Positions 17,681 to 63,605 of a stretch of DNA of 64,000 nt are shown one piece after another. Position 1 is the first letter of the stretch, and every line of letters begins with the position of its first letter. A program made the translations under genes and the position numbers. The notes beneath the pieces are model-generated. The model was not told where the DNA came from and did not search any database. It saw nothing but the letters and a program-made list of their open reading frames with translations. The stretch lies in the NCBI RefSeq assembly GCF_001941975.2, contig NZ_CP146991.1, positions 1,908,524-1,972,523 of the forward strand, written 5' to 3'. The stretch comes from Sporomusa sphaeroides DSM 2875 (GTDB lineage: Bacteria; Bacillota; Negativicutes; Sporomusales; Sporomusaceae).

Positions 17681-19396
17681 ATGCGTGTTTCCCAATTATT
17701 TGCACCAACGTTAAGAGAAACTCCGGCTGAAGCCGAAGTAATAAGCCATCAATTAATGCTCAGGGCTGGCTTTATTCGTAAAGCTGCCGGTGGAATTTAT
17801 TCGTACCTGCCATTGGCGTGGCGTGTCTTAAAAAAAATTGAAGCCATTGTGCGCGAAGAGATGGCTGCAAAAGGCGGTCAGGAACTGGCAATGCCAATTA
17901 TCCAGCCGGCCGAAATGTGGCAGGAAACTGGCCGGTGGAGTGTTTATGGTGATGAAATGTTTCGTCTCAAAGACCGTCACAACCGCAATTTCTGCTTAGG
18001 CCCTACCCATGAAGAACTGATTACCACCCTTGTTCGTGGTGACGTACGCTCCTATCGTCAACTGCCACTCCTGCTTTATCAGATTCAGAATAAATACCGC
18101 GATGAAATCAGACCCCGGTTTGGCCTTATGCGGGGACGGGAATTTATCATGAAGGATCTGTATTCATTTGACCGTGATGAGGCAGGCCTTGATGAAAGCT
18201 ATAACAAAATGTATGATGCTTATTCCCGGATATTTACCCGCTGCGGGCTGAGCTTCCGTGCGGTAGAAGCCGATTCAGGCGCTATCGGCGGCAGTGGTTC
18301 ACACGAGTTTATGGTAATTGCCGATTCCGGGGAAGCAGGCATTGTGTACTGCGGCGGCTGTGAATATGCCGCTAATGTTGAAAAAGCTGAACTGCATCCC
18401 ATCAGTGCGGCAGCCGAGGAAAGCATGCCGTTGACGGAAAAAGATACGCCGGATACGAAAACCATTGCCGCACTCAGCCAGTTCCTGGGGGTAAGCCCGG
18501 AAAAGACAATTAAGACACTGGCTTATAGCACCGATAAAGGTGAGATTGTCCTGGCACTGGTACGCGGTGACCATGAAGTAAACGAAATTAAACTGCTAAA
18601 TAAAGTTGGCTGCCTGCACCTTGAAATGGCTAACGAAGAAGCTATTGCCAGTGTTGTTGGCAGTAAAGCCGGATATATTGGTCCTGTTGGCCTGGCGGAC
18701 AAAAAGGATATTATTATTGTAGCCGATGCTACTGTTATGAATATGCATAATGCCGTGTGCGGTGCCAATAAGCCTGATGCACATTATATCAATGTTAATC
18801 CCGGCCGTGACTTTAAGGCGTCGATTGTTACCGATATCCGCTTGATTCAGGAAAGTGATCCGTGCCCCCGCTGCGGCGCTCCGATTAAAACGGCACGGGG
18901 GATTGAGGTTGGTCAGGTATTTAAGCTATTCACTAAATACAGTACAGCTTTGCAGACTACCTTTATTGATGACGATGGTAAAGAGAAGCCCATGGTAATG
19001 GGTTGTTACGGGATAGGGGTCAGCCGTACCATGGCGGCAGCCATTGAACAAAATTACGATCAAAACGGTATTATCTGGCCTGTACCTATTGCACCGTTCC
19101 ATGCCGTAGTTGTTCCCGTCAGCACCAAAGATCAACTGCAAATGGCTTTGGCTGAGAAAATATACGGTGAGTTAAACGCCAGCGGCGTAGAAGCCGTACT
19201 GGATGACCGCAATGAGCGTCCTGGTGTTAAATTTAAGGATGCCGATCTTATTGGCTATCCGGTAAAAGTCACAGTTGGTCCCAAAGCCATCAGTGACAAT
19301 CTAATTGAAGTTAAAGTGCGGCGTACCGGCGAGACACTCTATTTTGGACCTGAAGAATATGTAGCAGGTATCAAAACATTGCTGGCTAAACTGTAA
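17681..19396 (+). CDS. proS: Prolyl-tRNA synthetase (bacterial type)
   Basis: 571 aa. Charges tRNA-Pro. Class II motifs are present: the [18 protein letters not shown] motif 1 region, motif 2 around [19 protein letters not shown], motif 3 [11 protein letters not shown]. The YbaK-like INS editing domain (about residues 230-390) is present between motifs 2 and 3, as in other bacterial-type enzymes. ATG at 17681 follows AAGGAGG; an earlier in-frame start overlaps ispG and lacks a ribosome site. Confidence 0.97.
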
Positions 19397-19492
19397 TTAT
19401 ATATTCCACAATGCTGCGCCGGCGTTTGACTTGTCTTTTGCCGGCACACCATCTGTTTGTAAAAAAAATTTAACGCGGTATATATTATATAG
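19396..19492 (-). repeat. Family B repeat, decayed copy B1
   Basis: Matches the family B element in inverted orientation: the TTATATATTCC end, the GGCGTTTGACTT core, CCGGCACACCATC and the TTTAACGCG-TATAT other end are recognisable, but one hairpin arm (about 40 bases of the Gly-rich-coding-like GC stretch) is deleted. It starts at the proS stop. Confidence 0.6.
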
Positions 19493-26573: not shown

Positions 26574-29255
26574 ATGTCCAAATACAGAGTATATGAATTA
26601 GCCAAAGAATATAATACTACCAGTAAAGTTATTATAGATATTTTAGGTCGCCATAATATTACTGCCAAGAATCATATGAGCAGTGTTGATGAGGATGCAA
26701 AGGTCGCAATTGATAGAACGTTTGCCCGTAAAACAGGAGAGCCTAATCCGGGTACGCCTGTCCGCACTGCGCAGTCATCCCAGCCTGCCGCACCGGCTGA
26801 ACAACGGGTATCGCAGCCTGCAGCCGCTAATGCCGTACCGGCTGCTCATTCTCACCAGCCGTCAAACAGGCCGAATCAGAGTGGGCAGCAACAGAACAGA
26901 CCGGTCCGCAGCAATCAGTCGCAGAGCAGACCGGGTGTCAATAGCCAGCAGCCGCAGAATCGACCGGGTACCAATAGCCAGCAGCCGCAGAATCGACCGG
27001 GTACCAATAGCCAACAGCAACAGAACAGACCGGGTTATAATAACCAACAGCAACAGAACAGACCGGGTTATAATAACCAGCAGCAACAAAACAGACCGGG
27101 CTTCAATAATCAGCAACAACAGAACAGGCCGGGCTTTAGTAATCAGCAGCAGCAAAATAGACCGGGCTATAATAATCAGCAACAGCAGAACAGACCGGGT
27201 ACCAATAACCAGCAGCAACAGAACAGACCCGGCTTTAATAACCAGCAGCAGCGTCCACCGCAAAGGCCACAGACTCCTATGCAACAGTCTGGGCAGCAGC
27301 GCCAGCAGCCGAATCCGGCTTCTGGGGCGGATAACAGGCCACAGGGACAGCAAAATTCACAGTTTCAAAATAATAATCGCCGTTCGACCAATAATAATTC
27401 GCGCCGTGGCCCCGGGCAGGGGAATAGGAATTCGCAGCAACGTTCCGGCCAGCACAGAAACCAGGCCGGCAGGAATCAGTTTACTCCGCCGAAAGCTGAG
27501 ATGCCAAAACCTAAGAGCATCAAAATTGGCGAATCAATTACGGTAAAAGACCTGGCCGGCAAAATGGGCCGGGAAGCAGGCGAAGTAATTAAAAAGCTGA
27601 TGATGCTGGGAACCATGGTCAGTATTAATCAGGAAGTCGATTTCGATACAGCCACTATCTTAGGCGGTGAATTTGGCGTCACTGTTGAAGCTATTCCGCC
27701 GGAAGAAGATCCGACAGAAATTCCGGAGATTGAAGATGATGAAAAAGATTTGGTTCATCGTCCACCGGTTGTTACGGTTATGGGGCATGTTGACCATGGC
27801 AAAACCTCACTGTTAGACTCTATTCGGCAAACCCATGTGACATCGCAGGAAGCTGGCGGGATTACCCAGCATATTGGTGCTTATCAGGTAATGTGTCAGG
27901 GCAAAAAGATTGTCTTTTTGGATACTCCGGGCCATGAAGCGTTTACTTCCATGCGCGCGCGCGGCGCTCAGGTAACTGATATAGCCATTTTGGTTGTTGC
28001 CGCTGATGACGGTGTTATGCCTCAAACGATAGAAGCTATCAATCACGCCAAATCGGCAAAAGTTCCGATTATTGTTGCCATTAACAAAATAGATCGTCCG
28101 GGTGCAAACCCAGACCGGGTCAAGCAGCAATTGGCAGAACATCAGTTAATACCTGAGGACTGGGGCGGCGACACTATTATGGTTCCGGTCTCAGCCCATC
28201 AAAAGACAGGTATCAGCGACATTCTGGAAATGATTTTATTAGTGGCGGAAATGCTTGATCTTAAGGCAAATCCCAATCGTCTTGCTTATGGAACCATTAT
28301 TGAGGCCAAACTTGATAAAGGGCGGGGACCGGTATCAACCGTACTTGTGCAAAAAGGTACGCTTAGAATCGGTGATACCATCATTGCCGGTACCGCTTAT
28401 GGTAAAGTGCGGGCAATGACCAATGACCGTGGCGAAAAAATTAAGAAGGCTGAACCCTCTACACCGGTAGAAGTATTGGGATTGGCCGATGTTCCCCAGG
28501 CGGGTGATATTTTAGTGGCAGTTGACGAGCGAACTGCCAGGGCTGTGGCTGAAAAACGTGTGGCCAAAAAACGTACAGAAGATATCAAGCAGTCGCAGAA
28601 GGTCTCACTGGATGATTTATTTAAGCAAATCCAGGAAGGAAGCTTAAAAGATCTTAACATTGTAGTGAAAGCCGATGTTCAGGGATCGATTGAGGCTCTG
28701 CGTCAATCACTGGTAAATATCAAGAACAATGAAGTGAGAGTAAATATCGTTCATGCCGGTGTCGGCGCCATTAATGAATCGGACGTTATGTTAGCAGCCG
28801 CTTCTAACGCCCTGATCATTGGTTTTAATGTCCGACCTGACGGTAATGCCCGCAAAGCGGCAGACACTGAAAAAATCGACGTTAGAACCTACCGGGTTAT
28901 CTATGAAGCCATTAATGATGTAGAGGCTGCCATCACCGGTATGCTGGCTCCTGAGTTTAAAGAAGTCGTTTTGGGACATGTAGAAGTACGCCAGGTAATT
29001 TCTATCCCTAAAGCAGTGGTTGCCGGCTCCTATGTAACGGAAGGAAAAATCACCAGTACCAGCCAAGTGCGGATCTTGAGAAACGGCATTGTTATTCATG
29101 AAGGAAAACTCGAATCATTGCGGCGTTTTAAAGATGATGTCAAAGAAGTCGCACAAGGGTATGAATGTGGCATAACTGTTGAAAAGTTCCGCGATATTAA
29201 AGAAGGCGATATCATTGAAGCCTTCACCATGGAAGAAGTCGCACCGCGCGCTTAA
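26574..29255 (+). CDS. infB: Translation initiation factor IF-2
   Basis: 893 aa. GTPase that brings fMet-tRNA to the 30S subunit. N-terminal IF2-N helix domain ([11 protein letters not shown]), then a long disordered Gln/Asn/Arg/Pro region (about 60-305) with nine tandem 11-residue repeats of type [11 protein letters not shown] at residues 123-221, a second IF2-N domain, the G domain with [19 protein letters not shown] and [10 protein letters not shown], and C-terminal domains II-IV. ATG 26574 matches the conserved N-terminus; an earlier ATG-like start at 26544 lies in the ribosome-site region. Preceded by repeat A2. Confidence 0.98.
26940..27236 (+). repeat. In-frame 33-bp tandem repeat in infB
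   Basis: Nine consecutive 33-bp units, each encoding [15 protein letters not shown]-(Y/F/T). Silent and conservative differences between units show they are not all recent. Unit number could vary between strains. Confidence 0.9.
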
Positions 29256-35424: not shown

Positions 35425-36150
35425 ATGCAGTGTAAAATGATAATGGTAGGAAAAATTCGCCAGTGGTATGTGTATTTTTCTATTGGTGTCTTTTTGACAA
35501 TAGCTATGTTATCAGGCCTGCTCCAGCCGCTGCTGGCTACTACCCAACTGACGACTGTACCGCCGCCCATTTTTCAGGGAAATCAGTCGCGGCCGCAAGT
35601 GGCATTTGCTTGCAATGTATTCTGGGGCGAAGAATACCTCCCCGATATGCTTAAGACATTGGATAAAAATAATATTCACATCACTTTTTTTATTGGCGGC
35701 AGCTGGGCTAATAAATATCCTGAAATACTGAAGGATTTAGCCAATAGAGGACATGAACTGGGTAACCATACCTATAGCCACCCGCACCCTAACAACCTAA
35801 GCAAAGAGAAAAACAAAGAGCAAATCATAAAAACAGAAGAATTAGTGAACAATCTTACCGGCATAAAAACAAACCTGTACGCGCCACCTTATGGTGAGTA
35901 TAACAATACAGTATTGCTGGCTGCGCAGGAATTACAGTACACTACGATCATGTGGAGCATTGATACGGTCGATTGGAAGCGGCCGCCGCCGGAAATACTT
36001 AAGGAGCGGGTATTGAAAAAGCTTCATAACGGCGCCATTATTTTGATGCATCCAACCGCGCCTACCGCCCAGGCTCTTCCCAGTCTTATTGAGGAAATAC
36101 AAAAACGCGGATATACAATAACTACGGTATCTGATATACTAAAACCGTAA
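35425..36150 (+). CDS. ylxY: Polysaccharide deacetylase (YlxY/PdaB-like), secreted or membrane-anchored
   Basis: 241 aa. NodB-homology deacetylase of carbohydrate esterase family 4. One N-terminal membrane segment (about residues 14-35), then the NodB domain: metal His pair in HTYSHPHPNN, substrate groove APPYGEYN, and C-terminal ILMHPTAPT. The usual first-motif aspartates are replaced (VAFACNVFWGEEY), as in YlxY-like members, so activity is uncertain. ATG 35425 is chosen for AGGAG nine bases upstream; the GTG at 35392 lies inside repeat E1. Position after pnp matches Bacillus ylxY. Confidence 0.85.
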   Translation: MQCKMIMVGKIRQWYVYFSIGVFLTIAMLSGLLQPLLATTQLTTVPPPIFQGNQSRPQVAFACNVFWGEEYLPDMLKTLDKNNIHITFFIGGSWANKYPEILKDLANRGHELGNHTYSHPHPNNLSKEKNKEQIIKTEELVNNLTGIKTNLYAPPYGEYNNTVLLAAQELQYTTIMWSIDTVDWKRPPPEILKERVLKKLHNGAIILMHPTAPTAQALPSLIEEIQKRGYTITTVSDILKP

Positions 36151-38469: not shown

Positions 38470-38615
38470 TATAAATGGAGACTTGATTCAAATGGGGTTT
38501 TAACCCCATTTGAATCTTAGTCGGAATTATCCAGGGACTTAGCCGCTCGCCTGTGCCCATAGGGGTCTCCCGCTTGTGAAGCGGAGTCTTAGAGCGGGTT
38601 AGTCATCGGATAAAT
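38470..38615 (-). repeat. Family A structured repeat, inverted copy A3
   Basis: The reverse complement reads like A1 over most of its length: GACTAACCCGCTCTAAGACTCC, ATGGGCACAGGCGAGCGGC, then GGGGTT/AACCCC. Closing stem TTATCC/GGATAA and GACT/AGTC are kept; the apical hairpin is a perfect 15-bp stem (38485-38499 with 38502-38516). This copy is antisense to the flanking genes. Confidence 0.85.
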
Positions 38616-42017: not shown

Positions 42018-42080
42018 TATACAACACAGCGCCGCCGGCGTTTAACTCCGCTTATATATAACGGCCGCCCGCGCCTCAGT
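42018..42080 (-). repeat. Family B repeat, decayed copy B2
   Basis: ACAAC...GCCGGCGTTTAACTCCGCTTAT...CGGCCGCCCGCGCC aligns with the central part of B3 (59230-59287) in the same orientation. One arm is missing, so no long hairpin can form. Confidence 0.45.
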
Positions 42081-42184: not shown

Positions 42185-42219
42185 ATGTGTATAAAATGAA
42201 TAAGCAACATCCTATACAG

Positions 42220-42390
42220 GATGAAGTAGAGGTGCGGGAGTTAACAGTACTTTCAGGGAGAGCGGCGTCGATGAGCTGGAAGGAAAGGGACAACCGCCGA
42301 AGTAAAAGCAGGACTGCCAGTCTCTTTTACTGGTCTTATATCAAACAGGTTTAAGACTGTCACCATTACTTGGTGGAGTGCTATCTCATC
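42220..42390 (+). promoter_or_regulatory. Lysine riboswitch (L box) aptamer
   Basis: The conserved opening GAAGTAGAGGTGCGGGAG, the GCCGAAG block and the closing GGTGGAGTGCTATCTC are the hallmarks of the lysine aptamer; GATGA..TAG at the start pairs with CTA..TCATC at the end to form P1. Lysine binding should favour the downstream terminator (42448-42485), so this would switch off dapB-asd-dapG-dapA when lysine is plentiful. Fits the operon content exactly. Confidence 0.93.
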
Positions 42391-42447
42391 TGATCAGAGG
42401 AATATACGTTTGTATTTTCCTAAGGTTAGACCAATGCTGTCTTTAGG

Positions 42448-42526: not shown

Positions 42527-42657
42527 TTTTTCCCTGAGATTAACCCGCTCTAGGACTCCCTTTTTCAAAAGGGAGTTAAGAGCAGCTAAATCCCAGGATA
42601 AGGGCGACTAACCTTCAGATGGGGTTAAAACCCCACCTGAAGCTAAGTCTGCTTTAT
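42527..42657 (+). repeat. Family A structured repeat, copy A4 (riboswitch-dapB)
   Basis: Domain 2 is nearly identical to A1 (AGGATAAGGGCGACTAACC, CTTCAG.TGGGGT). In domain 1 the GACT/AGTC pair of A1 is GATT/AATC, a compensatory change, and the optional GCCC/GGGC side hairpin is absent; GACTCCC/GGGAGTT remains. Lies between the riboswitch terminator and dapB. Confidence 0.85.
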
Positions 42658-57580: not shown

Positions 57581-58915
57581 ATGCTTAAAGCAGGATTTGT
57601 TAGTTTAGGATGTGCCAAAAACCTGGTAGATACGGAAGTAATGCTGGGGATTTTGGCTGATAACAATATAACTATTACCGATGACCCACATGCCGCCGAT
57701 ATCCTGATAGTCAACACCTGTGGATTTATAGACTCTGCCAAAGAAGAGTCTATTTCCACCATTATTCAGATGGCTGATTTTAAACGGGAAGGTAAATGCC
57801 GGGGACTTATTGTTGCCGGCTGTCTGGGGCAGCGTTATCAGCAGGAATTATTAGATGAATTGCCGGAAGTATCGGCCATTGTCGGTACCGGCGCCTGGCA
57901 CCGGATTATGGAGGCAGTACAGGCTGTTCTGGCCGGTGAGCGTCTTTTGCTTATTGGTGAGACAGATACCATTTATGATGAAAATATGAGACGTATTACC
58001 ACTACCCCTTCTTATAGTGCTTATGTAAAAATTGCCGAAGGCTGTAGTAATTGCTGTTCCTATTGTGTGATTCCGCTGGTACGGGGAAAATATCGCAGCC
58101 GTACAGTAGAATCCATTGTCAGTGAGGTAAAAAATCTCACCGCGCAAGGTGTAAAAGAAATAAATTTGATTGCCCAGGACACTACCAGTTATGGGCGTGA
58201 CCGTTATCATACGCCGCAGTTAACAGCCTTGCTTAAAGAATTGGTAAAAATCGACGGACTGCTTTGGATTCGGCTGCTTTATTGCTATCCCAAATATTTT
58301 AATGATGAACTTATTGAAACAATTGCCAACGAACCTAAGATTTGCAAATATATTGACATGCCGCTGCAACATGCTGACGATGAAATATTAGCGGCCATGA
58401 ACCGCCGCGATACACGGGCGGATATTGAAACATTACTAACTAAAATTCGAACTTCCATCCCTGGCGTAGTTGTTCGTACTTCATTCATTGTCGGGTTCCC
58501 GGGTGAATCAGACGCGCACTTTGAAACCTTAAAGCAATTTATGCTGGCGCAAAAGTTTGAACGGGTAGGTGTTTTTTCCTACTCCCAGGAAGAAGGCACA
58601 CCAGCCGGGGCTTTGGCGCAGCAGGTGCCTGACGCGGTTAAAGAAGAACGCTATCACGAACTGATGGCCTTGCAATGCCAGATTTCTGGAGAACTGAATC
58701 GCCAGATGGAAGGAAAAGAGCTTACGGTACTGATTGAAGGCCATAATAGCGAACAGCCTGATGTGGCTTTCGGCAGGTCATACCGGGAAGCGCCTGAGGT
58801 GGATGGACGGATTTTTGTGGAGAACGCTGGCGGGCTGGTCCCCGGGACGGTAGTACAGGCAGAGGTTGTACAAGGATTTACGTACGATCTGTTAGCTGAG
58901 AAAAAGCCGGACTAG
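57581..58915 (+). CDS. rimO: Ribosomal protein S12 methylthiotransferase RimO
   Basis: 444 aa. Adds a methylthio group to Asp88/89 of ribosomal protein S12. Methylthiotransferase domain with VSLGCAKNLVDTEVM and VNTCGFIDSAKEES, radical SAM cluster motif CSNCCSYCVIP, QPD-like FVVGFPGE segment (FIVGFPGESD) and a C-terminal TRAM domain. ATG after TAGGAGG. The stop codon TAG shares its last two bases with the terminal inverted repeat of element E2. Confidence 0.96.
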   Translation: MLKAGFVSLGCAKNLVDTEVMLGILADNNITITDDPHAADILIVNTCGFIDSAKEESISTIIQMADFKREGKCRGLIVAGCLGQRYQQELLDELPEVSAIVGTGAWHRIMEAVQAVLAGERLLLIGETDTIYDENMRRITTTPSYSAYVKIAEGCSNCCSYCVIPLVRGKYRSRTVESIVSEVKNLTAQGVKEINLIAQDTTSYGRDRYHTPQLTALLKELVKIDGLLWIRLLYCYPKYFNDELIETIANEPKICKYIDMPLQHADDEILAAMNRRDTRADIETLLTKIRTSIPGVVVRTSFIVGFPGESDAHFETLKQFMLAQKFERVGVFSYSQEEGTPAGALAQQVPDAVKEERYHELMALQCQISGELNRQMEGKELTVLIEGHNSEQPDVAFGRSYREAPEVDGRIFVENAGGLVPGTVVQAEVVQGFTYDLLAEKKPD

Positions 58916-59074
58916 TACCTTGTGTCACTTAAAATTTGCGATTAGATAGCAAGGATTTTTTCGTCCTGCTAGGCGGAGGAGCCGCGCATATCGGACATAT
59001 GTAAGGCGACGACAACAACGCAGGACGGAAAAAGACTGCTATATAATCCAAATAATTAGGTGACACAAGGTACT
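58914..59074 (+). repeat. Family E element, full copy E2 (MITE-like)
   Basis: 161 bp with perfect 15-bp terminal inverted repeats AGTACCTTGTGTCAC / GTGACACAAGGTACT. Inside, TTTTTCGTCCTGC and GCAGGACGGAAAAA, and TAGCA/TGCTA, pair as well, making a long nested hairpin with a GC-rich centre. No ORF. The form suggests a miniature inverted-repeat element; no clear target duplication is visible. Confidence 0.8.
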
Positions 59075-59180: not shown

Positions 59181-59314
59181 CTATATATTCCGTGTTCATG
59201 AAGTTTGCGGGCGCAGGCGGGCGGTGTATTGACAACGCTCCACCACTGGCGTTTGACTTCCGCTTATGCCAACACACCACCCGCCTGCAAAAGTTTTTAA
59301 CACATTGTATATAG
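59181..59314 (-). repeat. Family B repeat, full copy B3 (before cinA)
   Basis: The reverse complement aligns with B4 in the recA leader along its whole length. Long hairpin: GCAGGCGGGCGGTGT (59213-59227) pairs with ACACCACCCGCCTGC (59274-59288), flanked by TTGAC/GCCAA and AAGTTT/AAGTTTTT steps, with CTATATATTC and TGTATATAG at the ends. It lies where pgsA is usually found. Confidence 0.8.
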
Positions 59315-62319: not shown

Positions 62320-62348
62320 TTGACAAAACGAACAAACGTTTGTATACT
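62320..62348 (+). promoter_or_regulatory. recA promoter with embedded LexA box
   Basis: TTGACA, exactly 17 bases, TATACT. Between them lies CGAACAAACGTTTG (62329-62342), matching the Gram-positive LexA/DinR consensus CGAACRNRYGTTYC at 13 of 14 positions. Repressor binding there would block polymerase, giving SOS control of recA. Confidence 0.92.
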
Positions 62349-62350
62349 GT

Positions 62351-62483
62351 TAGTATATATACAGCGCGTTAAAGTTTGCAGGCGGGAGGTGTGTTGGCAG
62401 TGAAAGTCAGGCACCAGCGGTGCGGCATTGTCAACATGCCTCCCGCCTGTGCCTGTAAACTTCTTTAATGCTGAATATATAGT
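62351..62483 (+). repeat. Family B repeat, full copy B4 (recA leader)
   Basis: Long hairpin: CAGGCGGGAGG (62379-62389) with CCTCCCGCCTG (62439-62449), continued outward through GTTAAAG/CTTTAA and TATATAT-type ends and inward through GTGTTG/CAACAT. The loop holds CACCAGCGGTG. It starts 3 bases after the recA -10 box, so nearly the whole element would be transcribed. Confidence 0.85.
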
Positions 62484-62507
62484 TAGCGGGGGAGGTTTAT
62501 ATTTATC

Positions 62508-63605
62508 GTGGATAAAGCGAAAGATTTTGAGAAAAACCGGGAAATGGACAAATTCAAAGCACTTGAAAATGCTATGCGGCAGATAGAGAAGGATTTTGGC
62601 AAAGGCGCTATTATGAAGCTTGGCGAAGCGGCTGCCAAAATGAATATTGAAGTTATCCCAACAGGCTCATTACCTCTTGATATTGCGCTCGGCGTCGGTG
62701 GCGTACCGCGAGGACGCGTTATTGAAATATTCGGGCCAGAGTCGTCAGGTAAAACCACAGTTGCGCTGCATATTATAGCCCAGGCACAGAAACTGGACGG
62801 TATAGCGGCATTTATTGACGCCGAGCATGCTCTTGATCCGGTTTACGCCAAAAAACTGGGTGTTGATATTGACAATCTTTTAATTTCCCAGCCTGATAAT
62901 GGTGAACAAGCTCTTGAGATTGCTGAGGCACTGGTGCGCAGTGCGGCTATTGATGTTATTGTCATTGACTCGGTAGCTGCTTTGGTGCCCAAAAACGAAA
63001 TTGAGGGAGATATGGGAGACTCGCATGTCGGTCTTCATGCCCGTTTAATGTCTCAAGCCTTACGTAAACTTACCGGTATTATCAGTAAGTCGCGTACTAC
63101 GGCTATCTTTATCAACCAAATTCGTGAAAAAGTCGGTGTTATGTTTGGCAATCCGGAAACAACCACCGGCGGACGTGCTTTAAAATTCTATTCGTCAGTT
63201 CGTTTGGATGTTCGTAAGGCCGATACTTTGAAACAAGGGAATGATGTTGTCGGTACCCGCACAAAGGTCAAGGTTGTTAAGAATAAAGTAGCTCCTCCGT
63301 TCAAACAGGCTGAATTTGACATAATGTATGGTGAAGGTATTTCGCGTGAAGGCAGTCTGGTGGATATGGGAGTTAGCCTTGATATTATCAATAAAAGCGG
63401 CGCATGGTTTTCTTACAATGGACAACGGCTGGGGCAAGGGCGGGAAAACGTCAAGGAATTTTTCAAAGAAAACCGGGAAATTGCCGATGAAATTGATAAG
63501 AAGATCCGCGAAACCTTACTTACCGGCGATGCCAAGCTTGATAAAACCTTAAGTCAAAGTGATGAGGTTTTTAGCGAGGATAGTGACGAGGCTTTTGAAG
63601 TCTGA
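62508..63605 (+). CDS. recA: Recombinase RecA
   Basis: 365 aa. Strand-exchange ATPase and co-protease for LexA. N-terminal polymerisation helix, Walker [20 protein letters not shown] (Walker B), L1/L2 loops ([39 protein letters not shown]), C-terminal domain and acidic tail. GTG start at 62508 behind GGGGGAGGTTT. SOS-type promoter at 62320 and a 133-nt hairpin repeat in the leader. Its stop overlaps the recX start (TGATG). Confidence 0.98.

Follow-up and report, generated by a model that had tools for sequence, protein, structure and literature searches.

The recA leader of Sporomusa sphaeroides DSM 2875 raises the question of how a long palindrome came to lie between the SOS promoter of this gene and its Shine-Dalgarno sequence (SD), and what it does to recA there. 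In the window, i.e. the entire 64,000-nt stretch of DNA analyzed here, recA (62508-63605, forward strand) is intact, encodes 365 aa from a GTG start and is the sole recA match in the genome. Its promoter on the same strand (62320-62348) has the form TTGACA-17-TATACT, with the -35 element at 62320-62325 and the -10 box at 62343-62348. It is conserved in nine relatives and overlaps a LexA box, CGAACAAACGTTTG (62329-62342, forward strand), which was read in the sequence, is likewise conserved, and agrees with the Bacillota LexA consensus. The SD, GGGGGAGG (62488-62495, forward strand), was recognized both in the sequence and in the fold. Between these signals, just 3' of the predicted recA start site, lies a 122-bp imperfect palindrome (62358-62479, in recA-sense orientation), delineated using folding, BLAST, consensus, covariance model and end comparison, with a TA on either side (62356-62357 and 62480-62481). 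The borders were set by the family consensus and the empty sites in relatives, and the two TA copies were assigned through the empty-site comparison together with the borders of an IS630 element in one relative (G009). The earlier note had described a 133-bp inverted repeat starting 3 bases after the -10 box. The repeat is real and strongly structured, but its extent is now 122 bp, and consensus and empty sites place its start about 9 bases after that box. Promoter spacing puts the recA +1 near 62355, one to three bases upstream of the element, and the recA mRNA can be expected, as had been foreseen, to begin essentially with it.

The predicted leader RNA folds at -75.4 kcal/mol, as against -49.5 +/- 3.9 for shuffled sequences (z -6.6). 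The fold contains an uninterrupted 25-bp stem with arms at 62378-62402 and 62426-62450, which encloses a core (62403-62425) marked as decayed by a count of its changed positions and bearing a small inner hairpin at 62411-62423. The right shoulder of the element carries TAAACTTC (62456-62463), a predicted anti-SD. A promoter scan detected no promoter inside the element, and Rfam returned no match to this stretch at gathering score; at relaxed E-values there were sub-threshold matches only, nearly all of them to microRNA hairpins.

Comparison of this leader with those of nine members of the same family (loci L038-L045 and L066) revealed that LexA box, promoter and SD are shared and that the element is absent from all nine. 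The predicted distance from the transcription start to the SD is 10-11 nt in these relatives versus a leader of about 135 nt here. Deleting the element along with one TA in silico brings the SD to 15 nt from the -10 box, exactly as in three of the relatives (G002, G003 and G011), and the filled and empty sites differ by a TA target-site duplication. Thus, the idea that a dispersed repeat has entered the recA leader is borne out, and since the site lacks the element in nine relatives the insertion is specific to this lineage. An element fixed and unstructured across the genus, the contrary outcome considered in the earlier note, is excluded on both counts, the element having a strong structure and not being fixed. 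The recA copy differs by 16-25% from family copies elsewhere, from which we infer that the insertion is probably not recent.

The element belongs to a sizeable family. BLAST recovered 10 copies in this genome and further ones in relatives, whereas a covariance model gave 32 matches in this genome, 80 in G004, 33 in G001 and 19-23 each in G007, G008 and G002; the four copies previously noticed in the window are present, but the genomic total is thus larger. Most relatives in the genus hold tens of copies, and in G011 the number for its own subfamily alone is at least 119, these copies being nearly identical and hence recent. Outside this group the core is rare: it is present in 11 of 380 genomes of the class, nine of them in the same family. 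On one contig of G011 (C1) three matches with equal scores, at 35927, 61675 and 87423, follow one another at intervals of exactly 25,748 bp, which points to a tandem duplication or an artefact of assembly. A right flank common to two copies (L029 and L020) was considered as a trace of a longer parent element, and this was rejected as the two loci are orthologous.

With respect to mobility, the family consists of short (122-128 bp), multi-copy elements devoid of a transposase gene, and the syntenic regions of G007 and G001 around some copies offer filled/empty pairs, with the element in one genome and absent from the other. A DDE_3 search and a transposase search across the genomes recovered IS630 elements in G011, G009 and G003, intact in the first two, and a decayed relic in G004, with the IS630/DDE_3 transposase sitting between MITE-like ends. 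The G009 element is 1167 bp long, occurs in several near-identical copies and has the ends CTATATA and TATATAG with TA at its borders. The MITE left end agrees with that of the G004 relic at 21 of 24 bases; the corresponding figure for the G011 MITE and the G009 IS630 is 20 of 24, and none of 100000 shuffles did as well. The right end of the relic at L273 matches that of the MITE at only 4 of 24 ungapped positions and becomes alike after a one-base shift, a resemblance that is suggestive at most. The AT-rich flanks fit a TA or a TATA target equally, and other dinucleotides occur at some copies. Given the IS630-like ends, the TA target and the filled/empty pairs, a non-autonomous IS630/Tc1-type MITE is the best-supported identity of the recA element, and a well-supported one as judged from sequence comparisons. 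In the Sporomusa sphaeroides genome itself the DDE_3 and transposase searches found no autonomous partner with matching ends, and its own DDE_3 genes are ruled out by their different ends. An old MITE does not strictly require an autonomous partner in the same genome, and a partner once active here may have been lost. Several near-identical copies in G009 have their IS630 transposase (L290, 1377-2544) divided between two ORFs, of 182 and 176 aa, an arrangement that hints at programmed frameshifting.

The window holds three further copies. A full one, B3, lies on the reverse strand between rimO and cinA (59184-59311), is flanked by TA, and is 76% identical to the recA copy by BLAST (E 5.5e-20), in keeping with its initial description as a full copy in opposite orientation; it is absent from G011, G007 and G001. 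Two decayed copies on the reverse strand, one after proS (19396-19492) and one with arms closer to the G003-type variant (42018-42080), are assigned by eye, the core sequence being recognizable in both, in line with the decayed copies previously proposed. It had also been suggested that the two copies around the cinA-helicase-recA block might matter for rearrangement. They are indeed inverted and about 3.2 kb apart, as inverted repeats flipping this block would be, but they are short and diverged, and the rimO-cinA-helicase-recA order and orientation are the same in G011, G007 and G001, which lack both. Hence, nothing points to rearrangement, and we consider it very unlikely. Other repeats in the window are a distinct inverted repeat, some 161 bp long, adjoining B3 (58914-59074, arms AGTACCTTGTGTCAC...), over which no alignment was obtained in G007, G001 and G011; a third dispersed family in both orientations, 79-88% alike (1484-1611, 38487-38614 and 42538-42641); and an array of 33-bp tandem repeats with at least eight registers (26889-27283). 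The window also contains a lysine riboswitch (42219-42391; RF00168, 108.8 bits).

Representatives of five subfamilies share a common 34-nt core, while their 16-bp arms differ almost throughout and nevertheless pair at 15-16 of 16 positions. In the main subfamily changes on both sides are seen in 16 of 32 pairs, a number reached neither by any of 500 shuffles nor by any slid control; the count was made on an alignment fitted to the model, which biases it towards structure. The both-side changes and the fully pairing arms thus indicate that the structure of the family has been maintained, by selection or by palindrome correction, both of which fit the data. The arms of the recA copy differ from those of an inferred ancestor by 7 changes, none of which breaks a stem pair; the probability of this under random change is 0.0005-0.02, according to the transition rate assumed. 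The core, in contrast, has decayed at 11 of 30 positions, and just one of 73 copies has a core more decayed. That the stem is whole although the core has decayed suggests a structure that was kept rather than tolerated. As unbroken stems occur in 4 of 21 copies of similar arm divergence (three besides the recA copy), this signal is suggestive and not a proof. In the stems G-U changes outnumber A-C changes (103 versus 44), which was considered as a sign of selection on the recA-sense RNA, but the difference disappears once each distinct variant is counted singly (17 versus 19), and RNA-level selection of this kind also fits badly with the orientation bias of the family.

This bias is seen among older copies between co-directional genes (L001-L036 and L298-L337), of which 39 are antisense and 6 parallel (p 5e-7), whereas the recent burst in G011 (L219-L236) is even, with 11 of each; the genes behind these counts are crudely called ORFs, orthologous loci are present among them, and the older and recent sets are different subfamilies. 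In G004 alone the bias has p 0.0002-0.002, the value varying with the ORF cut-off. Most simply, selection would have removed parallel copies lying within transcripts; the recA copy belongs to the small parallel-oriented minority.

An influence on recA regulation, raised as a possibility in the earlier note, emerges from the folding models as a predicted effect on translation. The SD is unpaired in 9-20% of the modelled ensemble with the element, compared to 69% without it and 34-64% in the relatives, and opening it would cost 7.4 kcal/mol rather than 2.6. The corresponding cost in the relatives spans 1.7 to 6.8 kcal/mol, the upper value belonging to G006 (L045), which naturally lacks the element. 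The predicted loss of accessibility comes about because the anti-SD TAAACTTC would pair with GAGGTTTA (62492-62499, forward strand, assigned from the fold). When the SD is forced open in the model, the right end of the element pairs with its left end; since it can pair with either the left end or the SD region, two mutually exclusive folds are predicted. A modelled cut within the long stem leaves the SD hidden, while a 5' end placed at 62462 or 62470 gives an SD that is 49% or 76% unpaired, respectively.

Taken as a whole, the most likely course of events, to which we assign a probability of about 0.7, is that an IS630-family transposase acting in trans inserted a MITE at a TA adjoining the start site of recA transcription, and that the resulting structured leader lowers translation, an effect that is only predicted. 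LexA control of transcription would have been unaltered, and the recA mRNA would have gained a leader of about 135 nt instead of about 11 nt. The right end of this leader would pair either with its own left end, freeing the SD, or with the SD region, hiding it. As the SD-hiding fold is predicted to dominate, initiation of translation would be lowered and would require the leader to refold or to be cleaved. The main competing account, less probable but deserving real weight, takes the same element to be a passive scar without effect on recA, which would be translated from refolded or cleaved leaders, its stem being intact by chance or through palindrome correction at the DNA level. Most MITEs are neutral, recA as an intact sole copy must be translated, the opening cost overlaps that of one natural leader, and three other diverged copies also have unbroken stems. 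Against such passivity stand the modelled drop in SD accessibility, a stem unbroken despite the heavily decayed core, and the rarity of the parallel orientation among older copies.

Beyond the predicted damping of translation, one might envisage that the structured 34-nt core is a functional RNA or a protein-binding motif and that the recA copy was co-opted as a bistable leader adding translational control to the SOS response, an extension that we regard as rather improbable. Its strong structure and two exclusive folds could also be those of a genuine cis-regulatory recA RNA, a riboswitch-like leader that never transposed; this is disfavoured as extremely unlikely, since the same sequence family is found at many unrelated loci, nine relatives have recA without it, and Rfam gave no above-threshold match to the stretch.

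The insertion of an IS630-type MITE, then, has parallels among known hairpin elements. RUP, the repeat unit of pneumococcus, which has been proposed to be mobilized by IS630-Spn1, is likewise a short palindromic intergenic repeat with about 100 copies, a TA target and IS630-like ends (PMC2229807). The present elements differ from it in their length of 122-128 bp and in a 34-nt core common to subfamilies with unrelated arms, and we saw no sequence relation. ERIC resembles them in its size of about 127 bp, TA ends, long RNA stem-loop and the importance of orientation for transcripts (PMC2229807), but is enterobacterial, of other sequence and without a known partner transposase, whereas matching IS630 ends are available here. 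Correia/NEMIS is also a TA-flanked MITE, and one Correia copy, located immediately 3' of the mtrCDE promoter, alters expression, its transcript being cut by RNase III (PMC10969869). By analogy, that copy is the nearest precedent for the position at recA, although Correia copies may carry IHF sites or promoters, and no promoter was detected in the recA MITE. Hence, the element looks and probably works like these TA-flanked hairpin MITEs able to alter transcripts (PMC2229807, PMC10969869, PMC3049150), a resemblance of architecture only that implies no membership. A literature search of incomplete coverage turned up no relevant work on MITEs in Negativicutes or Sporomusa or on such an insertion at recA; the kind of element is known, while the MITE family and its recA site appear to be new.

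These observations connect IS630 transposons with hundreds of palindromic repeats within a single bacterial family, and the contrast between an unbiased recent burst and biased older copies suggests selection on transcribed copies. At recA, a MITE has naturally rewritten the leader of the central SOS gene, with nine empty-site relatives serving as controls, and its effect on RecA output is directly testable.
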